Positions 1 through 60,745 of a stretch of DNA of 64,000 nucleotides are shown here, one piece after another. Location of the stretch: the NCBI GenBank assembly GCA_024195265.1, contig JAJLRJ010000009.1, forward strand, positions 9,227,791 to 9,291,790, in the 5' to 3' direction. Made by a program: the position numbers and the translations under genes. The stretch's first letter is position 1, and each line of letters opens with the position of its first letter. The notes beneath the pieces are model-generated. The model had not been told where the DNA came from. It saw nothing but the letters and a program-made list of their open reading frames with translations, and did not search any database. This DNA comes from Dendrophyllia cribrosa. Taxonomy: Eukaryota; Cnidaria; Anthozoa; Scleractinia; Dendrophylliidae.

Positions 1-2
1 TG

Positions 3-39010: not shown

Positions 39011-39297
39011 TATAGTACAGTATAGTATAGTATAGTATAGTATAGTGTAGTGTAGTGTAGTGTAGTGCAGTAGTGTAGTGTAGTGTAGTATAGTATAGTG
39101 TAGTGCAGTAGTGTAGTGTAGTGTAGTGTAGTGTAGTGTAGTGTAGTGTAGTGTAGTGTAGTGTAGTGTAGTGTAGTGTAGTATAGTATAGTATAGTATA
39201 GTATAGTATAGTATAGTATAGTATAGTATAGTATAGTATAGTATAGTATAGTATAGTATAGTATAGTATAGTATAGTATAGTATAGTATAATATAGT
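39011..39297. repeat. TATAG/TGTAG pentanucleotide microsatellite
   Basis: About 57 tandem pentamers, first TATAG, then mostly TGTAG, then TATAG again. The 111-aa minus-strand open frame over it is an artefact of the repeat. Confidence 0.95.
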
Positions 39298-45820: not shown

Positions 45821-46189
45821 TCAGCTGCGGAACCAAAGGCTGCAGCGACACGTCTACAATATTCGTCGCGAACCCCCCGAACTGCAAAAGATCTTAATTA
45901 AAACAAAAGAAATACACTGTGAGAAATAAGCTTGACATGGTTGCTGCAGGGAGGCCAGAACCAAAATGCACTCGAAATTCACAGGGCAATAATACTCATG
46001 CCTGCGCAAACTAACACTACCCGCGAAATGCGTAATAAGGGACTGCTGGACACAGGCCAGCGACAAAAGAGTACAATATGATCAGGTAAGGCTAACATGA
46101 CACGAAATGAGAACTCAAGGGTACACCACTGATACCCAAACATATCGGCACTTGACTACCAAATACACGCAGCAAAAAACACATGCACA

Positions 46190-47032
46190 TCTCCCGGTAA
46201 CCGCGGCAAACACAGGCTGCTCAAGGGTCAAAGAATCAAACTTGCTAAACACACCACCCGGTAACCTCAGAAAACACAGGCTGCTCACAGGTCAAAGAAT
46301 CAAACTTCGCAAAACACACCGCCCGGTAACCGCAACAAACACAGGCTGCTCACGGGTCAAAGAATCAAACTTCGCTAAACACACCGCCCGGTAACCGCAA
46401 CAAACACAGGCTGCTCACGGGTCAAAGAATTAAACTTCGCTAAACACACCGCCCGGTAACCGCAGAAAACACAGGCTGCTTACGGGTCAAAGAATCAAAC
46501 TTCGCCGAACACACCGCCCGGTAACCGCAGCAAACACAGGCTGCTCACGGGTCAAAGAATCAATCGCTAAGCAAACCGCTCGGTAACCGCAGCAGACACT
46601 AGCTGCAATATAGACAAAAATAAATAAAATACAAAAAAAAAAAAAAAAAAAAAACCGCAGAAAACACAGGCTGCTCACGGGTCAAAGAATCAAACTTCGC
46701 CAAACACACCGCCCCGTAACCGCAACAAACACAGGCTGCTCACGGGTCAAAGAATCAAACTTCGCTAAACACACCGCCCGGTAACCGCAGAAAACACAAG
46801 CTGCTTACGGGTCAAAGAATCAAACTTCGCTGAACACACCGCCCGGTAACCGCAGCAAACACAGGCTGCTCACGGGTCAAAGAATCAATCGCTAAGCAAA
46901 CCGCTCGGTAACCGCAGCAGACACTAGCTGCAATATAGACAAAAATAAATAAAATACAAAAAAAAAAAAAAAAACCCGCAGAAAACACAGGCTGCTCACG
47001 GGTCAAAGAATCAAACTTCGCTTAACACACCG
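46190..47032. repeat. 65-bp minisatellite, left part (target of the Polinton)
   Basis: About 12 copies of a 65-bp unit containing CCGCCCGGTAACCGCA, ACAGGCTGCTCACGGGTCAA and AAACTTCGCTAAACACA. A higher-order block of about 330 bp is repeated once; both its copies contain an insert ending in a long A-run (46630-46652, 46960-46975). The array stops at the Polinton and resumes at 60581. Confidence 0.9.
47028..47032 (+). repeat. Target-site duplication CACCG, left
   Basis: CACCG precedes the element and CACCG (60581-60585) follows it. Together they restore the minisatellite unit ACACACCGCCCGG. Five bases are certain; Polintons usually duplicate six. Confidence 0.65.
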
Positions 47033-47279
47033 AGTAGTTGGTTGAGAGGGAGTCAAATACGGTTTTTTCAAACCCCTAAATAAGCGGGCCTCACTCATTC
47101 GGCCCGCTTATTTAGGGGTTTGAAAAAACCGTATTTGACGTTCCTCTCAACCAACTACTCTGGATACTCCTCCCTCAAACCCCGTAAGAGGGGGCCAAAT
47201 GCGTTTTTTCCCGAGCCCGCCCGCAACGGCAAGCGAGACATAACCAATTGGAGAAATCTCTACCCTTGGTATATACGCA
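47033..47279 (+). repeat. Left terminal inverted repeat with internal hairpin
   Basis: It pairs with 60334-60580 with few mismatches. The outer 127 bp (47033-47159) are themselves a palindrome: arms of about 58 bp containing GTCAAATACGGTTTTTTCAA and CCCCTAAATAAGCGGGCC around a 10-bp loop at 47091-47100. The inner part contains the CCAATTG box (47244-47250) and TATATAC (47270-47276) that drive the first gene. Confidence 0.9.
47244..47276 (+). promoter_or_regulatory. Early-type promoter in left TIR
   Basis: CCAATTG and TATATAC are separated by about 26 bp, 13 bp ahead of the first ATG. The identical module in the right TIR faces the polymerase-type gene. Confidence 0.6.
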
Positions 47280-47289
47280 CATTGTGACA

Positions 47290-47496
47290 ATGGGGCGAGG
47301 AAGAAGCGGTCTTATTGCTACTGGTAAGAAAAAACAAGTTCTTTTTGAACGGTGCAATCACCCCAATTATTTTATTGGAAGGTCTTCTAATACAAGAGTG
47401 AGGCCCAGTCCAAAAGAAAACATTATCCCTCCAGATGTACTTAGAATTGCCGAAGCATTAACTCCACAGCAACTTGCATCACTTATTACCAATTGA
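47290..47496 (+). CDS. Terminal 68-aa basic protein, unknown function
   Basis: The ATG at 47290 is preferred over the in-frame 47248 ATG because the latter lies upstream of the TATATAC box. The protein starts MGRGRSGLIATGKKKQ, is basic at the N-terminus and ends LTPQQLASLITN. No domain is recognised. It is the first gene inside the left repeat, and the early-type promoter suggests expression soon after infection or mobilisation. Its last codons overlap the CCAATTG box of the next gene. Copy B has an unrelated gene at the equivalent end. Confidence 0.6.
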   Translation: MGRGRSGLIATGKKKQVLFERCNHPNYFIGRSSNTRVRPSPKENIIPPDVLRIAEALTPQQLASLITN

Positions 47497-47520
47497 AAAA
47501 ACTATACACCCTGTATATAC
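47489..47520 (+). promoter_or_regulatory. Early-type promoter of zinc-finger-like gene
   Basis: CCAATTG at 47489-47495 overlaps the stop of the preceding gene; TATATAC at 47514-47520; ATG at 47529. Confidence 0.6.
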
Positions 47521-47528
47521 CCACCCAC

Positions 47529-47969
47529 ATGGCAATGGCGGCTCAAGGTCTTGACTTTAACCCAAGGAATCAAGACTACTTCGGCAAATGGTTGTTGTCT
47601 TTTGGTGAATCCCATTGGGACTATTTGCCAGACATGATCAAAGATTACATCCTTGAACTGGTTGAAAGGAGTCTCCAGTGCGATTTGGCTACAAGGGAAA
47701 TTCATCAACGCAGGATGAAATCTATATGCCGTTCAATAAAAATTCATTATCACTGGCAAAACGATTGCTATTTCCCTACATTAAATTCACAAACATGTGA
47801 TGAATGCCAAGAACTCTTCTTACCAGAAGTGGACATGGGCAGACACCGAGCTATTTGCCCCTGCAAGCCTCCTTATAAACACAACATACAGAGCGTCTTC
47901 CTGCCTATGCCTTTAAACATCGGCAGTGATTACGAGGAAGGCTATGACGGAGTGGTTATTACCAATTGA
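47529..47969 (+). CDS. 146-aa protein with zinc-finger-like cysteine pattern
   Basis: The start MAMAAQGLDF follows the TATATAC box by 8 bp. The N-terminal two thirds are helical and charged (YLPDMIKDYILELVERSL). The C-terminal third has TCDECQELFLPEVDMGRH followed by R-x-x-C-x-C, a CxxC-x11-H-x4-C pattern typical of a C2HC-type finger. It probably binds nucleic acid; a regulatory role early in the cycle is inferred from the promoter class. The stop overlaps the CCAATTG box of the YqaJ gene. Confidence 0.6.
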   Translation: MAMAAQGLDFNPRNQDYFGKWLLSFGESHWDYLPDMIKDYILELVERSLQCDLATREIHQRRMKSICRSIKIHYHWQNDCYFPTLNSQTCDECQELFLPEVDMGRHRAICPCKPPYKHNIQSVFLPMPLNIGSDYEEGYDGVVITN

Positions 47970-47994
47970 AAAAACGCATGAACTTTGTATATAA
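47962..47994 (+). promoter_or_regulatory. Early-type promoter of YqaJ gene
   Basis: CCAATTG at 47962-47968, TATATA at 47988-47993, ATG directly after at 47995. The copy B nuclease gene has the same arrangement. Confidence 0.65.
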
Positions 47995-49116
47995 ATGATG
48001 GCGACAACACAAGTGTTCATGAACTTTCTCAAATCGAGAAACACTGGGCTGAAACAAAAGAGCGCCGACTGGGTGAGAGCCAGACAAAACTCCATCGGTG
48101 CATCAGAGATCTCTGCCTTGACAGGATCGTCGCCGTTTGAATCACGACAAAGCTTGCTCATAAAGAAAATACAGCCAACACATATGCTCAACAATGCGGC
48201 TTGTACCTGGGGCAATCTGTTCGAACCGCTTATTCGCAAGTATTTTGAGCAAAAACATTCTGTTTCCGTTTTTGGTTACAGCATCTCTATTAATCTAGCA
48301 AGAGATCATCCACTTTATCGAAAGGTCACTTGTAGTCCAGACGGATATTTTATAGACAAAGATAACACCTTAAGATTGTTAGAGTTTAAATGTCCGTTCA
48401 AGCGAAAAATAGCTATTAATAGAATTCCTAGTTATTATAGTGATCAGATACAAACAGGTCTTGCTTTGAGCGGTGATATGGTAAACAAAGGCTTGTTTGT
48501 TGACGGCTATTTTAGACTGTGTTCATTAAACCAGCTTGATCCAAGTTTAGCACACAATCATTTTCTCAACGGAGGAAAAGAATATAAAACGAAGTGTGAC
48601 ACAACACTTGCGTGGGGAGTTTGTTATTTATTTAGCAAACGGACGATAACAAGAAACCAAAGGTCAATCATCGATGTCGGCTCACTCACATCGAAACAAT
48701 TATTTGAGAGAATTATGTCTTCCATTGCTGAGAAATATATATGGTGTTGTTATGGTGCTGTAAGAATGTCGTTTAGAAAACAGGACGAAGACGAGGAGTT
48801 TTTGCAATATTACCATATGCAAAAAGTGTTTTCAGAGGGTTCAGAAAGCCCTAAACCAGTAGCTATGTTTGCATGGAAGCTTCTGGATATAACTGAGATT
48901 GGGGCGCCAAAGCAACCAAACTTTTTGAATAATATTCAAACGTCGGTCGAGCGTTTTCATAACAGCTTGGCAAGCCTTCGAAAAAAAATAACCGAACACT
49001 CTGAAGAGGCAGCTGAAAGCTATCACAGCTCTAAGAAAAATGCTGCCGCCGTAAGGGCTGGAGACGAAGAGCAAATGTTTGCATTTCTCATGGATAAACT
49101 TGCTCAAGGTTATTAA
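47995..49116 (+). CDS. YqaJ-family viral recombinase/exonuclease
   Basis: An intact 373-aa protein of the YqaJ / lambda-exonuclease group of PD-(D/E)XK nucleases. Seen in order: GLKQKSADWVRAR (residues 18-30), GASEISALTGSSPF (35-48), a conserved Glu in TWGNLFEPL (E77), SPDGY with the metal-binding Asp (D116), LEFKCP with the E-x-K pair (E130, K132) and the QIQ segment (151-153). Such enzymes resect DNA 5' to 3' for single-strand-annealing recombination and often help resolve replicating viral DNA. It is convergent with the VLTF3-like gene, the 3' ends overlapping by 29 bp, an arrangement kept in copy B. A TATATA box touches the start codon; the ATG at 47998 is an alternative start. Confidence 0.9.
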   Translation: MMATTQVFMNFLKSRNTGLKQKSADWVRARQNSIGASEISALTGSSPFESRQSLLIKKIQPTHMLNNAACTWGNLFEPLIRKYFEQKHSVSVFGYSISINLARDHPLYRKVTCSPDGYFIDKDNTLRLLEFKCPFKRKIAINRIPSYYSDQIQTGLALSGDMVNKGLFVDGYFRLCSLNQLDPSLAHNHFLNGGKEYKTKCDTTLAWGVCYLFSKRTITRNQRSIIDVGSLTSKQLFERIMSSIAEKYIWCCYGAVRMSFRKQDEDEEFLQYYHMQKVFSEGSESPKPVAMFAWKLLDITEIGAPKQPNFLNNIQTSVERFHNSLASLRKKITEHSEEAAESYHSSKKNAAAVRAGDEEQMFAFLMDKLAQGY

Positions 49117-50031
49117 TACCCACGGCATTAATAGCTGCTGTCCAATACCATTCATTTCTTAGACGTGTAGCGGTATTCTGATGTCTTATGTATGATAAGA
49201 TTTTGCGTTTTCTTGGCCCTTCTGTTAAAATTAGTTTTAAGAGCTTATGAATTATGAACTCATAAGATATCACGCTTGGAAGATGATCTCTTATGCTTGA
49301 GTAAACATAGTTAATTCGCCTAATTTCGTCATCGGTTAATCTCTGAGGGTGTTCACCTAGGATACAACTCAACAATAGAGTTGTGTGTTTATTGAAATCA
49401 CTGCGTTTTTTTTAAGAATGTTTCGTAGAGCGTCCATTGTTAAAAGTGATGGATGAATATTTCGTTTTGCCATTTCTTTACGTATTTCTAATAAAACCTT
49501 CTCACTGCCGCTTATGCTTTCTAAAGAGTAATTTCCGAGTAACTGATCAAGGCGATGTTTAAAATTATAATTTATTCTGCATGGTGTTTTAACTTTCATA
49601 TTTTTTTCTTTATCGTAGAGGTCTTTATGAGAAAAGACAGCTCCGTATATTGTTTCAATGCGGTTGCATTCTCTGCAGACAAGTTCTGTTGAATCACGAA
49701 TGCGTGTAAACGATCCACCACAGCTTTGACACGATTCAATGCTTTTATCTGTGCTGCCTAGAATGATAACAAACCTGTTTTCGCGATATTGTTGGATTAA
49801 TTCTTGTCTCGCTGACAAACTAAGATCTTCGAAAATGATTTGAAGTTTTTCTGTTAGTTGTGATCGGTGAAGCTCTTTTAGATAACTGCTTCCATAGAAG
49901 CCACGCAGCATGACTTGCTGGTGTTTTTTATCCAAGACATCTAGTTGAGTCTTGTATTCTCTCTTTTCATCCATAAGTCTAACAATAGACAGTTGCGTGA
50001 TAAAGCGCTCAATATGTTGCGACTCCGTCAT
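49088..50031 (-). pseudogene. VLTF3-like late transcription factor, one frameshift
   Basis: From the ATG at 50031 (MTESQHIERF) the first frame covers about 220 residues. It has a zinc ribbon formed by C101, C104, C119 and C122 (CQSCGG, CREC), followed by the helical RINYNFKHRLDQLLGNYSLE region. A shift at an A8 run near 49405 moves the reading to the frame ending at 49088, which holds LTDDEIRRINYVYSSIRDHL, FIIHKLLKLIL and RNEWYWTAAINAVG. This zinc ribbon plus helical order is that of the poxvirus VLTF-3 family shared by large DNA viruses. One extra A would restore continuity, so it is either a dead gene or a slippage site. Copy B breaks elsewhere. Upstream, CCAATTG (50059-50065 complement) marks it as an early-class gene. 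Confidence 0.8.
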
Positions 50032-50084
50032 GTTTTTTTTTAGAAAATTACAAATGTTCAATTGGGGAACGAAGCTTCTTGAAC

Positions 50085-50245
50085 ATACCGAAGCGCCCCA
50101 CAAATACCGAAGCGCCCCAACTTTGTTGAAAAAAGTTTTCTTGGGGCGCTTCGGAATTTATTTTTTTGAAAAAAATAAAACGGAACGCTTCTGAATTTAT
50201 TTTTTGAAATTTTTTTGGGGGGGCGCTTCGGAATTTATGGGCCTA
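50085..50245. repeat. Cluster of inverted GGGGCGCTTCGG repeats
   Basis: CCGAAGCGCCCC occurs twice (near 50088 and 50108), and its complement GGGGCGCTTCGG twice (near 50145 and 50222), with a decayed copy between. They are separated by A/T runs and can form large hairpins. The cluster lies between VLTF3 and the membrane gene, the longest non-coding gap inside the element. It could be a terminator, origin or packaging signal; nothing here decides. Confidence 0.7.
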
Positions 50246-50292
50246 TGTGTGGTGAGATTTTTCCCTCAAGATTTGTAGATTAAAACCTGAAT

Positions 50293-50967
50293 TTAATCTT
50301 TCAAATCTGATTTGGACACAGCTGTGAGACGATTGAACTTTTTTTGAAACTCTTCCTTGACTTCTTTGCGAAGTTCGGTTTTGATCTTGTCTATATCTAG
50401 CGCTGGAGTTTGCCTGTCTCCTTGTGTAGCCTTTTTTTCACCATAGCGAATCAAGGCTTTCAGTTCGTGATATTTTTCAACCTCACGCAGAATGATTGAA
50501 AATTCTGAATCACTGATTCGCTTGTCCGTCAGAGCTTTTGAAACCAAGTCATTGACAGAGTTTCGTTTAGCAAGGGCGAGTGTGTAGATTTTTTCATGTT
50601 TGGTGATTTTTCTTTCGAGCCTTTTACCGAATGCAGTAAGGCCAGCTGATGAAAACCCTGAAACGGCGGCAATGCCTGCAAGAGGAGGGCTGACGATAAC
50701 TCCAATTCCTGACAAAGCTGTTGCCAAGGTTGCAGAAGATAAACCCGCAGAAATGAAACCAAGGCAAACAGCTGAACCGTGAACAACAGAGCGGGTTCGT
50801 TTGTACTTCTTAGCGACCTGCCTATAATGACCGGCTTCTGACTCAAGCTCTTTCTGCAGGTCTGAGATTTTTTTTAGACGGAAGTCATCACCATTTGGTA
50901 ACACTGGGTAGAGCTGTTGTGTCTCGCTGTATTTGGGGGCCGATGGAAGCACATTGGCAGAACTCAT
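50293..50967 (-). CDS. Membrane protein with two hydrophobic segments, virion candidate
   Basis: A 224-aa protein starting MSSANVLPSAPKYSET just behind a TATATATACCC box. Residues 20-60 are charged and helical. Residues about 64-115 form two Gly/Ala/Ser-rich hydrophobic helices (AVCLGFISAGLSSATLATAL; GIAAVSGFSSAGLTAFG). A long charged helix with coiled-coil character follows up to LRKEVKEEFQKKFNRL. No family is known to me. The late-type promoter and its position next to the candidate penton suggest a capsid-internal or membrane-active structural protein. Intact. Confidence 0.65.
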   Translation of the reverse strand: MSSANVLPSAPKYSETQQLYPVLPNGDDFRLKKISDLQKELESEAGHYRQVAKKYKRTRSVVHGSAVCLGFISAGLSSATLATALSGIGVIVSPPLAGIAAVSGFSSAGLTAFGKRLERKITKHEKIYTLALAKRNSVNDLVSKALTDKRISDSEFSIILREVEKYHELKALIRYGEKKATQGDRQTPALDIDKIKTELRKEVKEEFQKKFNRLTAVSKSDLKD

Positions 50968-50990
50968 GGCGTGGGTATATATAAGATTTT

Positions 50991-51665
50991 TTAATTTATC
51001 TCAACTTCAAATTCTAAGGGCGCGTCATTGAAGTTGAAGAGGTCATTGTTCTCATCCCTCACTGACAGTGTTATGCTATTTACATAATCACCAGTCAATA
51101 CGTCACGCAAGACGTTCTGTTGTGTTGTCTCGTAGAAAATTTTCTCAAAAGCTTTTCCACGAATATCAAACCGAGCCAAAACTGTCGAAGGCTTACCATT
51201 GAGGAGGTTTTGTTCTTTATCAACCGGATCACAGTGGATGAAGCAAGTGCTTGGTGATGTGAATTTTTTAGTGGTTATATGAGGGGGTGTTTGTGTGTCA
51301 TTGCCAAATAATAATCTAAGATTATTGGAAAGCCCTATTAGATATTTACCCCCTGGGTTCAAAATCACCATAGCGCCAAGAGATGTATATGGTTTTACAT
51401 TTATCTCCATATTCTCTTCTGCGTATTTATCAACTATTGTTTTTGCCAAAGTACTAGGAGTGTAAAAACCAGGCTCAATGTCAATTATAACGGGTTGGGC
51501 CCCCGAGCTTAATGGTTTTACTGATATTTGTCCTCTTTGTTTCAAATTATGCCACGAGTTGAAAATTGAGCAAGAGACAAGACGGATATAACTCGGTTTC
51601 GGAAGTGGGTGATCGAAGTAGATCGTGTGAGGGTTCGAAGGTGTGACGATTGTTAACACAACCAT
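50991..51665 (-). CDS. Candidate penton / single jelly-roll minor capsid protein
   Basis: The start at 51665 (MVVLTIVTPSNPHT) is preferred over the longer frame from 51707 because the TATATAAT box lies between them. The protein is 224 aa and beta-rich, with short strands alternating with turns (YIRLVSCSIFNSW, GFYTPSTLA, GAMVILNPGG, SVLARFDIRG). It ends ITLSVRDENNDLFNFNDAPL followed by a final EFEVEIN strand. Size, predicted all-beta fold and place beside capsid genes fit the Polinton minor capsid (penton) protein. This is fold-level inference, not clear homology. It shares a 44-bp divergent promoter with the next gene. Intact. Confidence 0.6.
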   Translation of the reverse strand: MVVLTIVTPSNPHTIYFDHPLPKPSYIRLVSCSIFNSWHNLKQRGQISVKPLSSGAQPVIIDIEPGFYTPSTLAKTIVDKYAEENMEINVKPYTSLGAMVILNPGGKYLIGLSNNLRLLFGNDTQTPPHITTKKFTSPSTCFIHCDPVDKEQNLLNGKPSTVLARFDIRGKAFEKIFYETTQQNVLRDVLTGDYVNSITLSVRDENNDLFNFNDAPLEFEVEIN

Positions 51666-51709
51666 GATTGCATATATAATTACTTTTTTAAATATAAATA
51701 TATACAATC
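51666..51709. promoter_or_regulatory. Divergent late-type promoter
   Basis: 44 bp contain TATATAAT facing left and AAATATAAATATATAC facing right; each lies within 5-12 bp of its start codon. No CCAATTG box. Confidence 0.6.
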
Positions 51710-53520
51710 ATGTTTGGCAGACGGCCCGGTGGATTTAATCCTAATTCAAATCTTGGTATAAACATCGGCGGTCACAATTACGGACCCCCACCCCTTTTTT
51801 ATTCAACCCCAAACGCCTATACCCATGTAAAGCCAAAGCCACCCCCAGATCCACTAGCCTGGATGGGAACACCGGAGGCAATGAAGCTCTCTGCCGCGGC
51901 CAAGGCCAAGGCGATATCAGACTTCAAAAAGCGTTTCCCTCGCGCCGATATGTCACGCTTTGAAGTGCAAGTAGATTTTAGCGACGACCGCAAAACCGCC
52001 ACAGGGGAAGTGCTTTACAAAAAGGGCCCTGGTTCATGGAAGCTCGTTACAAGAATGCCCCACAAAGATTGGACTCAAGCCATGAGAGACGCTCTTGGTC
52101 TCCATCAAGACGGTGGTTTTCCCTATCAGTTATCGTTGGGGCAACCAGAAAAGTCAATCCCAGCTGTTGATTTCTCCATCACAATAGACAAGGATATGAT
52201 GATTGGCGCAATCTTGAACGATGAAGCGCAAAAGATTTACGTCACGCCAACTGATTATTTCGCAACGAAATACAGAAATATCTTCAGGGACACGCAGATT
52301 TCATTCACAACCGCGAAATACGGTAGAAAGTGGCTCGGTGGACCGCATATGAGTTTTTGGCCACAACAACTCTCCTTCGCACTGTGGTGTGCAACAACCG
52401 GCTGTGGAATCTCGCGTGACATTCTCTTCGATAAGAACTCCAGTCTATCCCTAACCCCCCAGCTCCGGTCGTTTTACCGGTTTCACGTTTATTTCACAAC
52501 AAGGCGAATACTTTACAAGATGGGTGGGGAACAAAGCGTGAGTGCTTTGCCAGACGACCCCCCATTCAACCAAAAAGACAACAAGTACAACATCGACGCG
52601 TACAAGAAGATTTGCATAGAGTTCGGGATCGACCCCAGTTCTGACTTCCGTTTCACATACGGTAAGAAACACGGTCTTGGGAATGTCTACATTGGGGAAT
52701 ACGGGGGTGGCAACATTTCTACCGATTACACCAATCCAGACCCCGATCTAGCTCTGTTCAATGACGAGCGCGTGACTGACAGAAAAGACCCCAACTTTCG
52801 CGCCAATGGAATATCTTTCGTCCACAACGACCAAGTGGCTGACACCCAGTTCGAGCACTTTGTGCCAAATTACGCACAGGGGCTAACACAGCCAGGGCTC
52901 GCGCGTATGAACCAATCAATCGAGGCCTTTGTGTACTGCATTCTTGGTTCACAAGCCAAAACCCGCAGCATGTCATTGGAAGAGGAGGCCGGGCGTTCGA
53001 AACGCAGAGAGTATTCCTCACCCATCTAGAGGAGGCCATAATACTGAACGACATCGCAACAAGCGTACAGTGTTACCAGCTTGCCATCCAAGCAACGAAA
53101 GTTCGCTTAGACTTTGCGACAGCACCCGGAAGCTGGCTCATGCCATCACGCATGATTATCAACACAGAGAGCGTGATCGGGTATAACAACAATCTACAGG
53201 AGGCAACGCAAGGGATGAAGCTGGGCGTAAACAATGACGTTAATCTGGGCACAAAAAAAGCCTCACTTCACCACATGGACGGTGGGCCAACAAAGATTAA
53301 TCCACCAAACAGTCACCCATCAAACCCGATACATAAACAGGCTACACAGGCACAGGGCATCGCGCCCAAACCAACTCCCACACCACAACCAGCCCCAACA
53401 CCAACACCACAACCCACTCCAACACCCACGCCACCACAGCCCGACTCACATCACGTAAACAAGGCACTCATTGCTGTGGGTGCGCTTGCTTTGGCAGGTC
53501 TTTTCGTTTGGTCGAGATAA
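51710..53520 (+). pseudogene. Large virion-type protein with Pro/Thr stalk and C-terminal membrane anchor, one frameshift
   Basis: The first frame (51710-53029, 439 aa) starts MFGRRPGGFNPNSN. It has an N-terminal Gly/Pro/Asn-rich tail and a folded region with FWPQQLSFALWCATTGCGIS, LRSFYRFHVYFTTRRILYKM and GIDPSSDFRF. Near 52990 a one-base change moves the coding into the frame that runs to 53520. That part adds a helical region, a TPTPQPTPTPT stalk and a final hydrophobic helix (ALIAVGALALAGLFV). The whole would be about 600 residues. I do not recognise a domain. The stalk plus anchor suggests a surface or envelope-associated protein; that is inference. Its stop is 4 bp from the stop of the convergent coiled-coil gene. 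Confidence 0.6.
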
Positions 53521-53524
53521 GTGT

Positions 53525-54991
53525 TCAAGACTTCGAACGCTTAGTGATCCTTTCAACCAGGAAGGCCACCACGGCAAGGATGAGCAGCCAGGCGTGTTCA
53601 CCCAGAAAGGAGATGACCGACCCAGCCGCTTTGAAGATGAAGCTCACGATTGAGCCAATGAGGCCAGGCAGGGCGTTGGCTGCTTTTTTACCAAGCTCTT
53701 TAAGCCCATTTCCAATAGCCTTGGTGGCCTTTGCCAGGCCATTCAAGGTGGCGAGTACCACAGCGCTGATGGTGATGCCAGCTGCCAGAACAATCGCTTG
53801 CAGGGTCCATCCGTATTTCTTGAAGATTTCTCTAACCCTCTCTCTCAAAGACAGGGCTTGTTCCCTTTCTTGAACCTGTGGTCGGAGCCTTGCCAGCTCT
53901 TCTTCTCGCTCAGCAACCCGGGCTTCCGCGGCTTCTCTGTCAGAGGGAGACGTGTTCTCATCCTCTATGACGCGCTTGTCTTCAGCGTTCTGCCGTTCAA
54001 GCTCGACTTCTCTTTCGTTTAACTCATCAAGGGGTTTAGTTGAGTTTAGCCTTGCTCCTATTTCGTTTCTTTCCTTCACCTTAGCAGAAAGTCGTGTTCT
54101 GATTTTGTCCACCTTTGCCTGTTCTTGGGCTCGTTGTTTTTGTATTTTTTGCAGGGGCCCTAATTTTTTTTTTCTGGTTTTCAAAATCTAGTTGAAGATT
54201 CTTTTTCAGCCGTTTTAGGCGGTCTATCTCGTTTTGATTTTCAACGCTTGAACCGTGTTCCTGCTCCAGAGCCTCCACCCTCGCTTGAGTTTGCTCAATT
54301 CTGTTTCTGAGGTTTTGCTCCTCATTTTGTACCTGTTGTAGCCTCTCAACAACCCTTTCATTCTCCTTCAGTTGTTTTTCTGCCTCCTGCAATCTTTGTC
54401 TTTCTTCCCTTATTGATGCATCCGATTCAGCCTTAAGCTCTTCAGCGCTTGGACCAAGAGAATCTTTGAACTTGTCTGTGAACGATTTCATAAAGTCCCC
54501 CTTCCCATCTTTCCTGAAAATGAGAGTCTCTCCGCCTTGTGGTCCCAAGGAAACCATTCTGTCTGTATTTCCTTTTTGTTTACCGAAAGTAATTGGGCCT
54601 ATTTCGCGAAGTTTACTTTTGGAAAGCGCTTTTTTAACCAGGCCTCAGCTTTAGCGATCATATCTGCTTTTTCATTTCCGTCTATGATTTCTCCAAACAG
54701 AGGGGCTTCTGGAGGATCACCTGGCAGCCCACTTTGTTCGTGAGGCATTGTATGCATTTCAATATGCTCGCCAACAGGACGAGGGGTGGATGTACCGCCT
54801 GGTACAAAGGGTTGCGTTGTGTTGGGGTCTTGGTCCTGGGTCCATCGGTGGGCTTCTTGTTTTTCTTCTTCTGTCATTTGATTCCACATGACTTCAACCT
54901 CGTCATCGTCACCATCGTCATTCCCTGTGTCTGGGATGAGAGGGGTTTCCTCAGTTGTCTTAGTTGTATCGACTTCGCCACCTTCAGCCAT
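53525..54991 (-). pseudogene. ~490-aa coiled-coil/membrane protein, two frameshifts
   Basis: Three minus-strand frames form one gene: 54991-54599 (acidic, starts MAEGGEVDTT), 54557-54181 (long coiled coil, EERQRLQEAEKQLKENERVV) and 54184-53525 (more coiled coil, then GWTLQAIVLAAGITISAVVL and HAWLLILAVVAFLVERI membrane helices). Breaks are at about 54604 and in an A10 run at 54165-54174, where A9 would keep the frame. The layout of acidic head, coiled coil, amphipathic region and tail anchor suits a virion-internal or membrane-bending structural protein. No known family. A divergent late-type promoter of 42 bp separates it from the capsid gene. Confidence 0.6.
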
Positions 54992-55033
54992 GATGATATA
55001 TAAATATAAATTTTAAAAACACAAATATATATC
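54992..55033. promoter_or_regulatory. Divergent late-type promoter of capsid gene
   Basis: TATATAAATATAAATTTTA facing one way and CACAAATATATATC facing the other within 42 bp; no CCAATTG. Confidence 0.6.
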
Positions 55034-56285
55034 ATGGCTGTGCAACCGAATCTACTTCCATCTCACAGTGAAAAGACACTGGGCGCCATGAAGGCAGAGC
55101 GAACCGTTAAGCGCATCACATTCAACCCTTCTGAGGCCAATCCCGGCGAGACACTGTACGTCTCGGTGCCCAAGCTGGGCGAGCACGATGTCATTGTGTC
55201 CGGCTCACTTGCACTGGTGTTCAACATCAACCTAGCCGGCGGCCACGTAAATAACTATCTCGTACAAAATGTTTCTCGGGCCCTGGTGGACAGGTTTGTT
55301 GTAAAGTTTGCCGCCACCACTGTCCAGGACACTGTTGGGTACGACATCTACAAGATCTTCGAAGACCCATTCCTCTCAGTGGATGAGCGGGAAAATATGC
55401 TTATGGAGGGCATCCAGAGTGTGGGTTTGTGTAAGATCCGCTCTGGTTCTGGCGACAAGCCTACCTCAGGCGTGGCTGCGGAAACCAAGCTTGAGACAAT
55501 ATACAAGAATAAGTATCGCATCAAACTGGATCACCAAATCTTAACTGATCACGGAATCATATATCCTCAAGCGTTATATAACGATCTGGTCTTCGAACTA
55601 ACCCTTGCCCCCGCAAACCAAGTTGTCCGGGGATCAGACACAAGCAAGCTCGTGTACAAGCTGGAAAACATCCAGCTGGAGTATGAGACGATCAGAAGTA
55701 AGGAGCTGGCCGACGATGCAACAAGTCGCTTACACTAGTGGCAAGGAGTTCGCTTATGACCTCGTAATGCGAGATCGGGTGCATCCCTTCTCAAAAGGTG
55801 GTGACACTCGGCTGAATCTTCGGGTTAACCCACAGCGCCGGTCTCTCAAGGGCATCCTCTTGCTGTTCAACGATCCCTATGTAGCGGGTGCCAGGGACTC
55901 TGAGAACTATTTCAATCCCGACATCACCAAAGTGAAGGTCACAGTCAACGGTGTTCCAAACAGGCTTTACAACGAGGGCATCAGTGGTACTGACATGTGG
56001 AATGAAATCTTCCGATACTTCAAGCCATACACGAGCGACAGGCCCAACATGAACTTGACCAAATATCTCACAGGCAACAAGTTTGGTCTCTGGATTGACC
56101 TGCGGTCCATGGCTGACACATCCCTGCACGGCAACGGCCAACGGCTCGTCAACACACAGGATGGCGTGCAACTCGAGATCGAACGAAACGGCACAGGCTC
56201 TGGAAACGCAAACTGCCACATCTTCACCATCTCAGACTCACAGGTGAACATCATGGGCAGGCAGCTGGAATCGGTTCAGTACTAG
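55034..56285 (+). pseudogene. Double jelly-roll major capsid protein, one frameshift
   Basis: The frame 55034-55738 encodes the first beta-barrel half (GETLYVSVPKLGEHDVIVSG, VQNVSRALVDRFVVKF, YDIYKIFEDPFLS). The last block before the break is YKLENIQLEYETIRSKELAD. After a one-base shift near 55715-55735 the second half continues to 56285 (SGKEFAYDLVMRDRV, RSLKGILLLFNDP, ITKVKVTVNGVPN, QLESVQY). The total is about 416 residues, all-beta, with two halves joined where a linker strand pair is expected. This matches the organisation of Polinton/adintovirus-type capsid proteins, which form trimeric capsomers. The call rests on pattern plus the ATPase directly downstream, the usual neighbour. Confidence 0.7.
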
Positions 56286-56325
56286 GTAAACACACGCTTA
56301 CGCACATATATATACCACAAGCCCC

Positions 56326-57070
56326 ATGGCCACAAACAACAAGATCAACTTCTATGCTAAGCCGGCTCCCCTGCCATCCACCGGACCATTATCACACAAT
56401 AAAATACAAAGACTTCTGGCAATGGCACCCTTCCCACCAGTTTGCAAACCAACTAATATAGGTGTTGGTTATGGACCCAAGAAAGCTGCCATTCAATGCA
56501 CTAATCGTGGGACCCACTTACTCTGGCAAGACACAGTATCTTCTAAACCAACTGCGAGGTCCCTTTAGGGGTTATTTTGACTACATCGTTTTATTCTGCC
56601 CCACATTTGTCAAGAACAAGACATACAATGGCTTCGTGGACCGCGATCCGCACATCTTCGTGATTGTCTGCCAACAGCATGAGCTCGAAGACTGGTTGAA
56701 GTTGGCGAGCTTCTTTTTCACATGCACCAACACTTTATTCATACTCGATGACTGCGCCGCCTCCAAAGATGTCAAAGGCCGCACGAGCCAGCTGGTCAAT
56801 CTGGGGTTCAGTGCAAGACATAACGGTATATCCGTGTGGGTGTTGACCCAGCAGATCACCAGCATTGCTAAGCCATATCGTGAAAATGTCGCAGCGATCG
56901 TGCTCTTTTACACGCCCTCAAGCAAGACCACCAAGGCCATATTCGAAGACTATGCCGGCGAGCTCTCCCATGAGGAGTACAAAGAGCTTATTGCAAGGCT
57001 CAAATCCCGCAAGTTCTCCCACCTGGTTTTCTCTCTGAGGCACCCGTATGGAATTGAGTACAAGGTTTAA
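56326..57070 (+). pseudogene. A32/FtsK-HerA-type DNA packaging ATPase, frameshift near N-terminus
   Basis: An N-terminal frame starts at 56326 (MATNNKINFYAKPAPLPS). Near 56460 it slips into the frame that begins MDPRKLPFNALIVGPTYSGK at 56471. Core motifs: Walker A GPTYSGKT (56510-56533), Walker B LFILDD (about 56734-56751), and the ARHNGISVWVLTQQ segment that carries the sensor Gln of this family. The core is 199 residues, short but complete, as in Polintons and virophages. It would pump genomes into capsids. The promoter CACATATATATACC sits 8-20 bp ahead of the first ATG. Start at 56471 is an alternative that would make the gene intact. Confidence 0.8.
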
Positions 57071-57089
57071 ACACACATATATACATGCC

Positions 57090-57329
57090 ATGAATGTGCA
57101 AACCAGCCTACACAAGCTCACTGTGCTTTCACAGCTTTTGGATGAATTACACAAACACACACTTGATGCGCAAAACAAAATTATCAAAGCCGCTGGTGAG
57201 GAAGATCTGCGCCTCATGCTTCTCAACAGATATCCATTGCGGTTGAATTCTATGCCAGACACCATGGCGGGGCTTAAACGAGAGATTGAAACTCTTTTGC
57301 CCGACATCAAGAGAATTATTGAAAAATAA
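57090..57329 (+). CDS. 79-aa helical protein, unknown
   Basis: The ATG at 57090 follows CACATATATATAC; an out-of-frame ATG (57084) would give only a two-codon peptide. The protein (MNVQTSLHKLTVLSQLLDEL..., ending LLPDIKRIIEK) is almost entirely helical and charged, with heptad-spaced leucines. The C-terminal fragment is conserved in copy B at the window start. It follows the ATPase by 20 bp and is probably co-expressed late. No family recognised. Confidence 0.65.
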   Translation: MNVQTSLHKLTVLSQLLDELHKHTLDAQNKIIKAAGEEDLRLMLLNRYPLRLNSMPDTMAGLKREIETLLPDIKRIIEK

Positions 57330-57350
57330 AAACACATATATATACCCCTG

Positions 57351-57890
57351 ATGATGGCAGAAGCAGCTGAAGACCAGGTCGCCTTGAACGAAGTAATGCA
57401 GATGCTGGAGGCCACCCCTGAAACCACACCTTCCACAGGGATAGTTGGTGACAATGGCATTCCTGCCAAACGCGAGAAGCTGGCAATCCTTGTTTCAACT
57501 GGCAAGGCAAAAGAAGCTATCGGCGTGCAGCTCACACACGATCATGTCAAGCGGTTGTCAGACAAGGACGTTGAGAAGTACTGCAAAAGGTACGAGGCCT
57601 ACATAGGCAACAAGACAACCGAATCCCTAGTTGATTCCGCCATCATGCTCGTGTCCAAAGGCGTTGGTTTGGTGATCCCGATTGAGGATGTCAAGGAGTT
57701 GCAGCAAGAACTCAAAAACGACTACATCATCAACCAGGAGCTGTCAAATCTTGCTGGGGCTCTTTCCATGCGATGCGGACGATTGCTGGCGCTTGCCAAT
57801 GCTGCTCTCATCACAACAAAACACATCAAGTTTGAACGAGAGCCTGAGCCCCAACTCACACATATAATTGCATCCAACCAGAGACAGTGA
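57351..57890 (+). CDS. 179-aa conserved Polinton protein
   Basis: Starts MMAEAAEDQVALNEVMQMLE behind CACATATATATACCC. It aligns closely with the copy B protein (158-754) through ALITTKHIKFE. After about residue 165 a shift replaces the copy B-like tail; the old tail codons (RDSEGYPLKGFDEV) are still readable in another frame downstream, so the last about 14 residues here are new. The core has two moderately hydrophobic helices. Function unknown; conserved neighbourhood suggests a late protein. Confidence 0.7.
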   Translation: MMAEAAEDQVALNEVMQMLEATPETTPSTGIVGDNGIPAKREKLAILVSTGKAKEAIGVQLTHDHVKRLSDKDVEKYCKRYEAYIGNKTTESLVDSAIMLVSKGVGLVIPIEDVKELQQELKNDYIINQELSNLAGALSMRCGRLLALANAALITTKHIKFEREPEPQLTHIIASNQRQ

Positions 57891-58044
57891 AGGCTATCCA
57901 CTTAAGGGCTTTGATGAAGTTGGGCTGCACTGGGACCTGGGGTAACCTCGCAGGAACCTTGAAGGAACCTGGCTGGAACCTGACAGCAACCTGCCAGCAC
58001 ACTTGTCACATCTTATAAAAAATAAAATCATATATATACCCACT

Positions 58045-58543
58045 ATGGCCACACCACTCGAGACGATCCCTAAAGAAACTCAAACTCCAACTCCAACACC
58101 TGCCCGTGTTACCTCTGAGGCCCCGAAAACAAAGCCTGCAACAGAAAAGAATCCCGGCCGCGTTAATTGCTTCTGGTAAAAGGCTAGCAGAACGCAACCG
58201 CCTGGCCCGTGAAGCAAAGAAAAAGGCCGAAGCACAAAAGCCTGCACCATCAACAAGTGGCACAACAAGTGACACAACAAGGGGTGCAACAAGTGACACA
58301 ACAAGTGGTGCAACAAGTGACAGCAACAACAACTCAATCTTTTATATTCTGGGGGTTGGAGGGTTGGCTGTCTCTGTTGCGGGTGTGTACTACCAACGCG
58401 AAGCCATAATGCAAAGGCTTGGACGCAAATCAAACACACCAGCAACACCAGCAACACCACCAAACACACCACAAGCAGCCGCACCCGCTGCACCACCCCC
58501 ATCTCGAATTCCGGTAAGACAAGGAATTAAAAAAATGGAATAA
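58045..58543 (+). pseudogene. Lys/Arg-rich single-pass membrane protein, 4-nt insertion
   Basis: The gene starts MATPLETIPKETQTPTPTPA at 58045 behind CATATATATACCC. After NPGRV a four-base AATT insertion, absent in copy B, ends the frame at a TGA/TAA-rich point. The original frame resumes as ASGKRLAERNRLAREAKKKA, a Ser/Thr-rich linker with GATSDTT repeats, a transmembrane segment (FYILGVGGLAVSVAGVYY) and a Pro/Ala-rich tail. The full product would be about 165 residues. The basic stretch could contact DNA on the inner side of a membrane or capsid; inference. Confidence 0.7.
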
Positions 58544-58566
58544 AAAAACACATATGTATACTGACC

Positions 58567-58911
58567 ATGAATCTTTTCCAGGCTGTGATTGATGTTGCTT
58601 TAATCGGAGGCGTGATTATTTTTTGGTATAAATTAAACGTGAACGCCTTTGAAGTAGTTTACCTCTTGTTAAGGAACAGGCACAACGAGCCCGAGCCTGA
58701 GGCCGAGTCCGAGGCCGAACTCGAGGCCCGAATCCGAAAGGCCGAGGCCCGAATCCGAAAGGCCGAGGCCCGAACCCGAAAGGCCGAGGCCCGAGTCCGA
58801 AAGGCCGAGGTCCGAACCCGAAAGGCCGAGGCCGAAGTCCGAGAGGCCGAGGCCCGAGGATTGAGATTGAACGAGACGACAAAGGCACAAAAAGTTCTGT
58901 CAGAAAAATAA
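58567..58911 (+). CDS. N-terminal membrane anchor with iterated heptad coiled coil
   Basis: A 114-aa protein behind a CATATGTATAC box. Residues 5-22 (QAVIDVALIGGVIIFWYKL) are a membrane segment. Residues about 46-100 are a tandem array of a seven-residue unit E-A-R-x-R-K-A, encoded by a 21-bp DNA repeat with the third unit position varying I/T/V. This gives a perfect charged coiled-coil stalk. Repeat number probably changes by slippage between copies. The opposite-strand frames here are artefacts of the repeat. No known family. Confidence 0.65.
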   Translation: MNLFQAVIDVALIGGVIIFWYKLNVNAFEVVYLLLRNRHNEPEPEAESEAELEARIRKAEARIRKAEARTRKAEARVRKAEVRTRKAEAEVREAEARGLRLNETTKAQKVLSEK

Positions 58912-58939
58912 AAAAACATATGTATACTGCACACAAACA

Positions 58940-59161
58940 ATGTCTGACAACAAGCTTGTGAAGTCTATCCTCGAAGCCGCAACAATCACAGGCCTTGTCG
59001 CTGGTATTGGTTGGATTGGGAAAAAGACCATCAAAGAAAACTTCACTGCCGACCCCAGTGCAAGCTTTATGAACTTAGTCAAGTTCACAACCGTCATGGC
59101 TGGCAGCATCGCGCTGAAGAAATATTTTGAGGACCAGAAAATCCTCCCAGACAATATGTAA
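58940..59161 (+). CDS. 73-aa small membrane protein
   Basis: Starts MSDNKLVKSILEAATITGLV behind CATATGTATAC. Two hydrophobic stretches (ATITGLVAGIGWIG and MNLVKFTTVMAGSIAL) are separated by a polar loop. Holin-like size and layout, but no family can be claimed. Intact. Confidence 0.6.
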   Translation: MSDNKLVKSILEAATITGLVAGIGWIGKKTIKENFTADPSASFMNLVKFTTVMAGSIALKKYFEDQKILPDNM

Positions 59162-59187
59162 AAACCATATGTATACACACGACCACA

Positions 59188-59274
59188 ATGGCTTCGATTG
59201 CAATAATGGCCCTTCTCAACCCACACTGCCTTGACACCGAAACCGCCTTCTGGGTAAAAGGCTTTCTCAAAAGC
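59188..59274 (+). pseudogene. 5' stump of a deleted gene at the internal deletion junction
   Basis: A third CATATGTATAC promoter is followed by ATG and about eight codons (MASIAIMA). After this the sequence is the inverted 3' part of the polymerase-type gene, and the frame soon stops. Promoter and start codon are intact but the gene body is gone. Confidence 0.6.
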
Positions 59275-60333
59275 TGACTCCGGAGGGAGGACACGTTTAC
59301 CGGGGCAGTCGATTTTTGTTTGGCCTCGAGTACACGTCTTGGAGTGGCGCTTCAAGTTATCAGCCCGTGCGAACCTCCCACCACACTCGCCACAAGTGTA
59401 ATTGTTTGTGACTTTATTGATATTGGTGATCAAGAAGGAGTGGCCCTCATGAATACCGATAGTCATGGTTGAAGCGCCCACCTTGTCGTAATTCGCAGGG
59501 GTGTGAGATAAAATGAAGTTACCATTGGGGAGAACAAGATATGCGGCAATTCCTTGCTTGAAATGCCTTTCGATTTTAGAGAAGTGCCGCAAATTTAGCT
59601 GGCCTCGAAGCCCCGGATAAACTGCGAAGAAGCTTTCCGCGAATTCCCTGGTTCTGCGAGTGTTGTAATCTCTACGAGCTCCTCGATGGACAGCAAAGCA
59701 ACGAAAGAGACAAAGATTGTCGTTGAAATTGTCAAGGGCAATGACTTCTCTTTTGTTGCGAATCCAATCAGGAAGACGCCCGAGGCCTATTTGCAAGGGT
59801 TGTCGATCCAACACGACTTTGACATCAAGCAGGGCAGTGCGTTCGTAAACCCATTTGGTGTCAGGCCTGTTGAGTCTTGCGTTTTGAAGACGAAACTCTT
59901 CCTGGGCTTGCAGCCACTGTCGTGTCTCGGAAAGAGTGGATAGCCAACGACTGTTGTGGTTGTTTTGATAAAACATTCTCAGCTCCTCGGTTTCAGTGTT
60001 TCGTAACTCGAATGTGAAGCGTAAATTGATTGCGTGTCGTGTGTGAACATTTTGCTTGATTTTGTTCAAAATTCTGGAGACAAGAGAGTTTTCGAGATTG
60101 TTTACAAAGCGTAACCGGATTATTCGTCTGCCGTGTTCAACCCATCGGTCAACCCGATCATAGATTTGAACAAGTTGTTCAAAATCTAGCTCCTGCGGAT
60201 TGTTTTGAGGCTCGACCTCAGCATTATTGTCGTCGGCAGGCTCGAGCCGCTCGACATTTCGTTCCTGTTCGTCCAGCCAGGCAATCAGCTCGCGTTGATT
60301 GGCATCACGTCGTCTTCGCCGGGGTTGTGCCAT
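59210..60333 (-). pseudogene. Polinton DNA-polymerase-type protein, N-terminal part only
   Basis: The frame starts at 60333, on the inner edge of the right repeat, and gives about 370 residues before homology ends near 59210. Visible: a basic start (MAQPRRRRRDANQ), an acidic helical region, VKVVLDRQPLQIGLGRLPDW, a DNLCLFRCFAVHRG segment reminiscent of a Cys-protease-like (OTU) motif, EGHSFLITNI, and a zinc finger (C314, C317, H330, C334) followed by FEKAFYPEG. In Polintons this extension precedes the protein-primed PolB exonuclease and polymerase domains; none of those motifs follows. A deletion has fused the cut gene to the stump of a + strand gene. Assignment to the polymerase is from recalled family architecture. 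Confidence 0.65.
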
Positions 60334-60580
60334 TGCGTATATACCAAGGGTAGGGATTTCTTCAATTGGTTATGTCTCGCTTGCCGTTGCGGACGGGCTC
60401 GGGAAAAAACGCATTTGGCCCCCTCTTACGGGGTTTGAGGGAGGGGTATCCAGAGTAGTTGGTTGAGAGGAACGTCAAATACGGTTTTTTCAAACCCCTA
60501 AATAAGCGGGCCGAACGAGTGAGGCCGCTTATTTAGGGGTTTGAAAAAACCGTATTTGACTTCCTCTCAACCAACCTACT
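60334..60580 (-). repeat. Right terminal inverted repeat with internal hairpin
   Basis: Complement of 47033-47279 with a few differences (for example an extra C near the end). The outer hairpin spans 60454-60580. CAATTGG (60363-60369) and GTATATA (60337-60343) face the polymerase-type gene. Confidence 0.9.
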
Positions 60581-60745
60581 CACCGCCCGGTAACCGCAGG
60601 AAACACAGGCTGCTTACGGGTCAAAGAATCAAACTTCGCTGAACACACCGCCCGGTAATCGCAGCAAACACAGGCTGCTCACGGGTCAAAGAATCAATCG
60701 CTAAGCAAACCGCTCGGTAACCGCAGCAGACACTAGCTGCTCGCA
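60581..60745. repeat. 65-bp minisatellite, right part
   Basis: It starts with the CACCG duplication and continues the same unit for about 2.5 copies. It then leaves the array after GACACTAGCTGC into sequence preceding the DIRS RNase H region. Confidence 0.85.

Follow-up and report, generated by a model that had tools for sequence, protein, structure and literature searches.

A Polinton-like element carrying VLTF3-like and YqaJ genes in the genome of Dendrophyllia cribrosa

Our analysis of a 64,000-nucleotide stretch of Dendrophyllia cribrosa DNA (the window) revealed a 13.5-kb element, element A, that is most likely the integrated copy of a DNA virus of Polinton/Maverick type, with an internal deletion and breaks in part of its genes. 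It carries genes for a VLTF3-like late transcription factor and a YqaJ-type nuclease, both best known from giant viruses, of which VLTF3 serves as a core marker. The same two genes were found in a second, diverged element (fragment B), so they are not a one-off in this lineage but old residents of it (Table 1). Their presence in two diverged Polinton-type elements weakens VLTF3 as a giant-virus marker, and the lineage may hold an intermediate place between Polintons and the large DNA viruses or may have exchanged genes with the latter.

The boundaries of element A were confirmed where the original prediction had placed them, and the long inverted repeats and target duplication that it described were both recovered. 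The inverted arms were 96.8% identical over 249 nt in a gapped alignment and 93% identical over 216 nt without gaps. The outer part of the left repeat was predicted to form one hairpin about 57 bp long (z -20.9), and a hairpin was also predicted for the right repeat (z -18.4). The repeats carried the Maverick end motif (PMC8097293), with one mismatch to (ACT)2 at the right end. Element A sits cleanly inserted in a 65-bp satellite, as joining the flanks with the 5-bp duplication CACCG removed restored the satellite unit at 62 of 65 bases, whereas the alternative joins fitted worse (43/65 with both copies kept, 43/65 with 4 bp removed and 41/65 with 6 bp removed). The duplication is 5 bp long, one base short of the 6 bp reported in intact vertebrate Mavericks (PMC8097293).

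Descent from a TP-vOTU protein-primed polymerase was evident from residues 1-384 of the truncated polymerase gene product, which align with full polymerases. This front third had 361 homologues, all four of those examined carried PF03175, and residues C208 and H298 were the same in 62 of 62 long homologues. Beyond residue 384 follows an unrelated tail, which was used to look for a deletion form that had spread; it was matched by none of the 120 homologues listed in a search of proteins of about 520 aa or more. The catalytic two thirds are gone, and the C-terminal parts of the 62 long homologues, used as tblastn queries for the exonuclease and palm, had no match in the window. Since exonuclease and palm are absent and a complete protein-primed family B polymerase is thus missing, we class element A as a deleted derivative rather than an intact Polinton. 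The scanned ORFs of the element (a subset leaving some short ORFs aside) matched no Pfam family of integrases, including RVE, or of proteases, including cysteine protease, and none of D5 primase-helicase or RNA polymerase. The Polinton-type origin and coordinates of the predicted element thus stood, while its description as near-complete did not: the polymerase core is gone, an integrase was not recognised and several genes are broken in frame.

Table 1. Features of element A and fragment B (window positions)
Feature	Position	Strand	Details
Element A	47033-60580		13.5 kb
Left terminal inverted repeat	47033-47279		begins AGTAGT; outer 128 bp palindromic
Right terminal inverted repeat	60334-60580		ends CTACT; outer 128 bp palindromic
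Target site duplication, left copy	47028-47032		CACCG; flank-joining test
Target site duplication, right copy	60581-60585		CACCG; flank-joining test
orf1	47290-47496	+	68 aa; no Pfam match; CCAATTGGA box 37 nt upstream
orf2	47529-47969	+	146 aa; Cys/His-rich stretch; no Pfam match; CCAATTGAA box 31 nt upstream
YqaJ-type (lambda-exonuclease-like) recombinase nuclease	47995-49116	+	373 aa, open frame; PF09588, E 9.3e-19
VLTF3-like late transcription factor	49091-50031	-	overlapping frames 49369-50031 and 49091-49411; PF04947
224-aa ORF	50293-50967	-	hydrophobic stretch; ATATATAC 7 nt before start
224-aa ORF, predicted candidate penton	50991-51665	-	no Pfam, PHROG or PDB match
439-aa ORF	51710-53029	+	no Pfam or PDB match
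126-aa ORF	53140-53520	+	Pro/Thr-rich; C-terminal hydrophobic segment
Coiled-coil gene	53528-54557	-	apparently overlapping frames 54081-54557 and 53528-54187, from coiled-coil continuity
130-aa acidic protein	54599-54991	-	no Pfam match
Major capsid protein (double jelly roll)	55034-56285	+	broken: 55034-55738 and 55683-56285
A32-like packaging ATPase	56326-57070	+	ORF 56471-57070, probable front end 56326-56568; PF04665, E 2.2e-14
Small protein of 93-aa ORF 57048-57329	57090-57329	+	homologue in fragment B
179-aa ORF	57351-57890	+	homologue in fragment B with 68% identity
Apparent two-frame gene	58045-58540	+	58045-58176 and 58019-58540
114-aa ORF	58567-58911	+	hydrophobic N-terminus; repeat array
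73-aa hydrophobic ORF	58940-59161	+	no Pfam match
Truncated protein-primed DNA polymerase	58900-60333	-	477 residues; 1-384, terminal protein, vOTU and C2H2 region
Early-type box, orf1	47244-47252	+	CCAATT[GT][AG]A; inside terminal inverted repeat
Early-type box, orf2	47489-47497	+	
Early-type box, YqaJ	47962-47970	+	
Early-type box, VLTF3	50057-50065	-	
Early-type box, polymerase	60361-60369	-	inside terminal inverted repeat
Late-type signal, 179-aa gene	57338-57345	+	ATATATAC
Late-type signal, minus-strand copy	50975-50982	-	ATATATAC
Late-type signal, further copies	51698-51705, 56308-56315, 57077-57084, 58032-58039	+	ATATATAC
Fragment B	1-3446		diverged element cut by window edge
Fragment B VLTF3	1048-1864	+	two frames; 41-42% identical to that of element A
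Fragment B YqaJ	1856-2816	-	two pieces; 61% identical to that of element A
Fragment B ORF	2947-3207	-	first ~25 residues polymerase-like; start is second ATG
Fragment B palindromic end	3266-3446		ends ACTACT

The predicted compact gene set on both strands was seen in the ORFs of element A, and its VLTF3-like factor, YqaJ exonuclease and A32-like ATPase were upheld by matches to PF04947, PF09588 and PF04665, all exceeding the Pfam cut-offs. The two VLTF3 frames matched PF04947 at positions 14-65 with 27.5 bits (E 3e-6) and at positions 64-164 with 27.9 bits, against a cut-off of 25 bits. The YqaJ protein was RecE-like in PHROG (E 2.9e-25), and a two-sequence YqaJ profile retrieved the PDB entries 5yeu/5yet ('R354', E 1.9e-6). 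None of 114 candidate VLTF3 relatives in the protein database reached E <= 0.001, PDB profile searches with the back part of VLTF3 and with the 439-aa and 224-aa proteins gave nothing useful, and single proteins and alignments as queries yielded no confirmed viral relatives in IMG/VR. The similarity of the VLTF3 front part to designed pentatricopeptide-repeat proteins (four in PDB, E 1e-7 to 5e-7) was dismissed as chance, as no stretch passed alone.

Fragment B also encodes homologues of the 93-aa and 179-aa proteins, and by-eye resemblance suggests that the gene at 58045-58540 likely has a homologue within its positions 780-1085. The back part of its VLTF3 scored 24.1 bits with PF04947, just under the cut-off, and its front part had no PF04947 match. 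Divergence between the two elements was greatest at third codon positions in YqaJ and, less clearly, in VLTF3, which argues for selection on these proteins. Third-position GC was low in both 224-aa genes as well (0.38-0.40) and is thus not peculiar to VLTF3 and YqaJ.

The front piece of the capsid gene product had 1673 homologues at E <= 0.001 in the protein database, and in intact relatives the two pieces correspond to residues 1-231 and about 233-417. The original prediction of a jelly-roll-type capsid gene had called for structure prediction; the model of an intact relative of ~416 aa matched double-jelly-roll capsid proteins, the nearest being PBCV-1, iridovirus and asfarvirus-type proteins, at low confidence (pLDDT 57.7; TM 0.2-0.3 in most rows). 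Neither outcome named in advance as fatal to the prediction (no VLTF3 or capsid profile match; no jelly-roll fold) thus occurred. Polinton capsids were absent among the VIA-align and Foldseek rows shown, which is evidence neither way; cnidarian capsid genes have been placed outside the main Maverick cluster (PMC10120064). For the candidate penton, a single-sequence model (pLDDT 36) was useless for the fold.

The capsid and VLTF3 genes of element A are each spread over two frames, and the ATPase, whose front end is probably the ORF 56326-56568 in another frame bearing a late-type signal, and two other genes are probably broken as well. These breaks may be real or only apparent through assembly error. 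An element functional but for polymerase and integrase, its breaks being assembly or sequencing errors or, in VLTF3, a programmed frameshift, is a conceivable explanation, though we do not consider it probable. Two breaks coincide with homopolymer runs, and the VLTF3 switch of element A is found at the kind of A-run known to promote frameshifting. False breaks from assembly are documented for inserts of this kind (PMC10120064). However, the capsid break lies away from homopolymers while 66 of the 120 homologues listed (405-440 aa) span both pieces, and no base error explains the loss of the polymerase part. A programmed frameshift common to both VLTF3 copies was rejected, as fragment B switches in the opposite direction and its aligned frame holds a stop.

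Inspection of upstream sequences revealed, after the fact, two classes of promoter-like signals, which are new and a possible further giant-virus-like feature. All five CCAATT[GT][AG]A boxes in element A stand 24-37 nt upstream of an ATG, but fewer than five are independent because the orf1 and polymerase boxes are one inverted-repeat sequence in its two copies and a duplicated 20-mer is common to orf2 and YqaJ. Two further upstream sites occur in fragment B, and the 47,006 bp that belong to neither element hold a single match. Capsid-side starts lack this box and mostly have just a sequence of TATATA type near the ATG; its form ATATATAC occurs six times in element A and nowhere else in the window. 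A TATA-type signal is missing at the VLTF3 start and at 2 of 15 capsid-side starts, and such hexamers, which also precede 6 of the 7 early-side starts, are not peculiar to the capsid side. The counts of 15 and 7 starts leave out the fragment B VLTF3 start and use 58052 for the gene at 58045. The signal counts are partly circular, as the signals came from inspecting upstream sequences, three starts (56326, 57090 and 3207 in fragment B) were chosen partly with regard to the signals, and the early/late grouping follows the box itself. The starts 56471 (ATPase) and 57048, both without a TATA-type signal, were replaced by 56326 and 57090, both with one, the latter because ATATATAC stands 5 nt upstream; 58045, set by frame, also lies 5 nt past its signal. 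In fragment B, the first ATG (3249) would put the box inside the polymerase-like ORF.

Collectively, these data suggest that this lineage of small viruses may use, or borrow, a programme of gene expression in the style of giant viruses. In the intact lineage, TP-primed replication would start at the inverted ends, with YqaJ acting as a recombination nuclease. The genes expressed first (orf1, orf2, YqaJ, VLTF3 and polymerase) would have promoters with the CCAATTGAA box, and VLTF3 would then activate the capsid and packaging module through short TATATA-type promoters at start codons. As no RNA polymerase was found among the scanned ORFs of element A, we propose that the host cell or a co-infecting large DNA virus would supply it. 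Element A itself is unlikely to replicate or integrate alone; had it moved after the deletion, polymerase and integrase would have come from an intact relative. The full combination of a linear Polinton genome with hairpin-forming ends, an early regulon (polymerase, YqaJ, VLTF3 and two small genes) whose CCAATTGAA box would be related to the AAAATTGA promoter of giant viruses, and a VLTF3-dependent late regulon (capsid and packaging) with asfarvirus-like TATATA promoters at the start site is a tentative proposal, which we think may well fail as a joint claim. If true, VLTF3 would not be diagnostic of Nucleocytoviricota, and it would predate the split of Polintons and large viruses or have been exchanged together with the promoter code. 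The paired signals make it testable whether a small integrating virus employs the late transcription of giant viruses, and whose RNA polymerase would then serve it.

Possible, though short of probable, is an ordinary Polinton remnant in which VLTF3 and YqaJ are inherited passengers without temporal role and the signals are Pol II CCAAT/TATA boxes or A/T-rich spacers. CCAAT also forms the core of the NF-Y box of the host, and the TATA-type hexamers on the early side and the post hoc discovery of the signals fit this explanation. Pol II usually starts about 30 nt downstream of a TATA box, however, and most of these sequences are no more than about 20 nt away from the ATG, too close for such use. 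The near-restriction of the box to the two elements and the signs of selection on the proteins also speak against this explanation.

The two signal classes resemble the early AAAATTGA signals and the late TATATA signals at start regions in asfarvirus-type systems, including pacmanvirus, an asfarvirus relative whose transpoviron has both (PMC5294985, PMC11788076). This likeness, together with a VLTF3 gene accompanied by no RNA polymerase match in the ORFs scanned, would suit a present or past satellite of a large DNA virus that uses its transcription machinery, like virophages or transpovirons, as would the lone VLTF3 of the sea anemone Exaiptasia, reported as a giant-virus trace grouped with Asfarviridae (PMC5294986). 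We nevertheless regard a satellite as improbable: the box is CCAATTGAA and not AAAATTGA, with the AATTGA core alone in common, no large DNA virus of the host was found, and no sign of helper dependence was seen. The Exaiptasia gene may instead belong to an element such as those described here. We consider it very improbable that element A is a nucleocytoplasmic large DNA virus fragment rather than a Polinton, since VLTF3, the A32-type ATPase, YqaJ and the nearest capsid folds are outweighed by the Maverick-type ends, target duplication, TP-vOTU polymerase front, 13.5-kb size and lack of D5 or RNA polymerase matches among the ORFs scanned.

The Polinton/Maverick-type origin that we favour rests on shared AGT-type inverted repeats, the TP-vOTU polymerase front, the double-jelly-roll capsid family and the packaging ATPase; element A differs in its 5-bp duplication, missing polymerase core and integrase, palindromic ends, and VLTF3 and YqaJ genes. 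VLTF2/VLTF3 homologues were called undetectable thus far outside Nucleocytoviricota, and VLTF3 was taken as diagnostic, in a 2024 report on mriyaviruses (PMC11253617). Those viruses likewise have small genomes with VLTF3, a packaging ATPase and a double-jelly-roll capsid, but their genomes measure 35-45 kb and are assigned to Nucleocytoviricota. VLTF3 was already reported in 2024 in adintovirus-like inserts of Amoebidium, where it also accompanies a family B DNA polymerase gene and the genes for major and minor capsid proteins; in contrast to element A, these inserts reach about 30 kb when complete, encode a Dam methyltransferase and reside in a unicellular host (PMC11244446). Meldviruses are mosaics too, with genes of Polinton type and of poxvirus/megavirus type, and some have neither polymerase nor integrase, but the terms VLTF3 and YqaJ are absent from the main text describing them (PMC11071296). 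Capsid and polymerase relatives are common in ENA assemblies, and the size of the capsid family implies ample material in public assemblies. The homologue lists of the two proteins (111 and 115 distinct contig sizes) have 13 contig sizes in common, which hints that both genes sit on the same contigs.

Element A, an integrated Polinton/Maverick-type element, is best read as a Polinton-type provirus that has suffered damage and whose lineage has had VLTF3 and YqaJ for a long time. Its ends confirmed the predicted long inverted repeats, which agree at 93% over 216 nt ungapped and at 96.8% over 249 nt when gaps are allowed. The predicted target duplication was likewise recovered, as the 5-bp CACCG on either flank, within an array of a 65-bp satellite whose left part has a 325-bp higher-order period. 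Joining the flanks at CACCG restored the satellite unit at 62 of 65 bases, compared with 41 to 43 for the other three cuts tried. The left end starts with AGTAGT, to which the right end is nearly complementary. Vertebrate Mavericks are reported, in the accessible text of PMC8097293, to have (AGT)2//(ACT)2 ends and 6-bp duplications; the ends of element A fit this description, whereas its 5-bp duplication does not.

The outer 128 bp at each end form a palindrome, with a single predicted hairpin of approximately 57 bp (z of −20.9 and −18.4). The end of fragment B, a second element cut by the window edge, finishes in ACTACT and is also palindromic, with another stem sequence (z of −11.8). That the hairpin shape is shared and the sequence is not suggests that the hairpins serve to replicate or resolve the ends, with a parallel in the large DNA viruses that have hairpin ends. 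Among the 15 of 126 papers listed by a literature search, none dealt directly with hairpins in Polintons.

The YqaJ exonuclease and A32-like ATPase of the original prediction were both found by Pfam. YqaJ is also similar to RecE-like phage nucleases, and the profile built from the A and B copies matched the solved protein 'R354' (E value of 1.9e-6), which we take to be a mimivirus protein. The VLTF3-like gene withstood the profile search as well: since two frames match successive parts of PF04947 above the cut-off of 25 bits, we consider the homology sound and the gene split over two frames.

Features of element A, fragment B and the surrounding window
Feature	Position	Strand	Evidence or remark
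Element A	47033-60580		Inverted repeats at ends
Target duplication	47028-47032, 60581-60585		CACCG
65-bp satellite array	46186-47032, 60582-60742		Flanks of A
Palindromic ends of A	47033-47160, 60453-60580		Predicted folding
20-nt direct duplication	47483-47502, 47956-47975		Spans early-type box
YqaJ	47995-49116		Pfam
VLTF3, first piece	49369-50031		PF04947 positions 14-65, 27.5 bits
VLTF3, continuation in other frame	49094-49411		PF04947 positions 64-164, 27.9 bits
A32-type ATPase	56471-57070		Pfam
Polymerase front, 477-aa ORF	58900-60333	-	Homologues
Fragment B	1-3446		Cut by window edge
Polymerase-like ORF of B	2947-3249	-	N-terminal resemblance
Palindromic end of B	3266-3446		Predicted folding
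Tandem 128-bp units	22904-23388		About four units
ORF with weak nuclease match	31104-31499	+	Viral_alk_exo, 17 bits
TATAG microsatellite	39011-39297		About 56 copies

The 477-aa ORF had 361 homologues among 2686 candidates (120 of them listed), and DNA_pol_B_2 was located at approximately residues 650 to 1085 in all four long homologues tested. Among the matches listed, the alignment with the ORF stops at residues 380 to 384 in 97 of 120 homologues and reaches slightly beyond 384, below 400, in 7, the remainder stopping earlier; the tail past residue 384 matched none of these 120. Because the alignments stop near residue 384 and the C-terminal parts of 62 long homologues had no match anywhere in the window (E ≤ 0.001), this copy retains a putative terminal-protein part and the vOTU region in an open frame but has lost the exonuclease and palm. 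In the kept part, C208 and H298 agree with all 62 long homologues, a pair consistent with the catalytic residues (Cys and His) that PMC11071308 describes in the vOTU domain of polinton polymerases. With no integrase match among the A ORFs scanned, this truncation and the split VLTF3 contradict the earlier view of the element as near-complete, and its suggested position between Polintons and large DNA viruses stays a hypothesis.

Fragment B proved to be a diverged relative of element A. Compared with A, its 179-aa homologue is 68% identical and a piece of the 93-aa homologue 62% identical over 32 residues. YqaJ is divided into two pieces, at 61% and 35%, and VLTF3 extends over two frames, at 41% and 42%; the back part of VLTF3 scored 24.1 bits against PF04947, just below the cut-off, while the front part gave nothing in that search. 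Its polymerase-like ORF resembles a Polinton-type polymerase N-terminus only over the first ~25 residues, counted from the second ATG (3207), and then differs. Since VLTF3 and YqaJ follow in the same order inward from the left end of A and the right end of B and have different inner neighbours, a rearrangement of the ends has taken place.

Third codon positions were the most different in all five A/B comparisons, with identities at positions 1/2/3 of 0.73/0.76/0.40 and 0.52/0.59/0.36 for the YqaJ front and back, 0.54/0.71/0.50 and 0.60/0.67/0.50 for the VLTF3 front and back, and 0.76/0.88/0.57 for the 179-aa gene. This pattern points to selection at the protein level, and does so less clearly in the case of VLTF3. 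GC at third positions is low in VLTF3 and YqaJ of both elements (0.30-0.39) and reaches 0.54-0.66 in the 439-aa, capsid, ATPase and 179-aa genes; because both intervening 224-aa genes are low as well (0.38-0.40) and the polymerase stands at 0.50, composition tracks position as much as gene class.

Two classes of promoter-like signal were spotted post hoc, some starts having been picked with the signal in view. The early-type box CCAATT[GT][AG]A occurs five times in A, each 24-37 nt upstream of an ATG (orf1, orf2, YqaJ, VLTF3 and polymerase), although the copies in the two inverted repeats are not independent and neither is the orf2/YqaJ pair, where the 20-nt direct duplication spans both boxes. 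Two further copies precede YqaJ (27 nt) and the polymerase-like ORF (22 nt) of B, and one lies in the remaining 47,006 bp of the window. The extended pattern CCAATTGAANNAA, with one mismatch permitted, gave 9 window matches where 4.1 were expected, a total that 2 of 100 shuffles also attained; six are the upstream boxes and three lie elsewhere. A CCAATTGAA-type box stands within 60 nt of 0/15 capsid-side starts examined and, as follows from how the starts were grouped, of 7/7 early-side starts. A TATA-type signal accompanies 13/15 capsid-side and 6/7 early-side starts, VLTF3 lacking one; such a hexamer lies within 30 nt upstream of 16/23 starts, compared with 3.4% of random 30-mers of A. All six copies of ATATATAC in the window fall within A, with four copies 4-10 nt upstream of starts used for capsid-side genes, one copy being 5 nt before ATG 58045 and one 5 nt before ATG 57090. 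When orf1 was excluded, the 8-mer that most starts had in common was TATATACC (5 of 17 starts; 0 of 3000 random sets reach 5), and when orf2 was excluded too, 4 starts had it, a number matched in 4 of 3000 random sets; the early box was common to 4 and 3 starts, respectively, the random-set figures referring to TATATACC only. PMC5294985 and PMC11788076 give AAAATTGA as an early signal and TATATA as the late signal of asfarvirus type. VLTF3 would act on the TATATA-type promoters, an outside RNA polymerase would be used, and the intact lineage would replicate via terminal-protein priming.

There is already some precedent for VLTF3 in Polinton-like inserts, since a 2024 study (PMC11244446) described it in adintovirus-like inserts of Amoebidium. 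Beyond that report, the present locus contributes an element whose ends are mapped and which also carries YqaJ, a further copy that has diverged, and a two-class promoter-like grammar. Elsewhere in the window, the ORF with a Viral_alk_exo match below the cut-off of 20 bits may be a further nuclease fragment or chance, and two repeats were noted, the tandem 128-bp units and the TATAG pentamer microsatellite.
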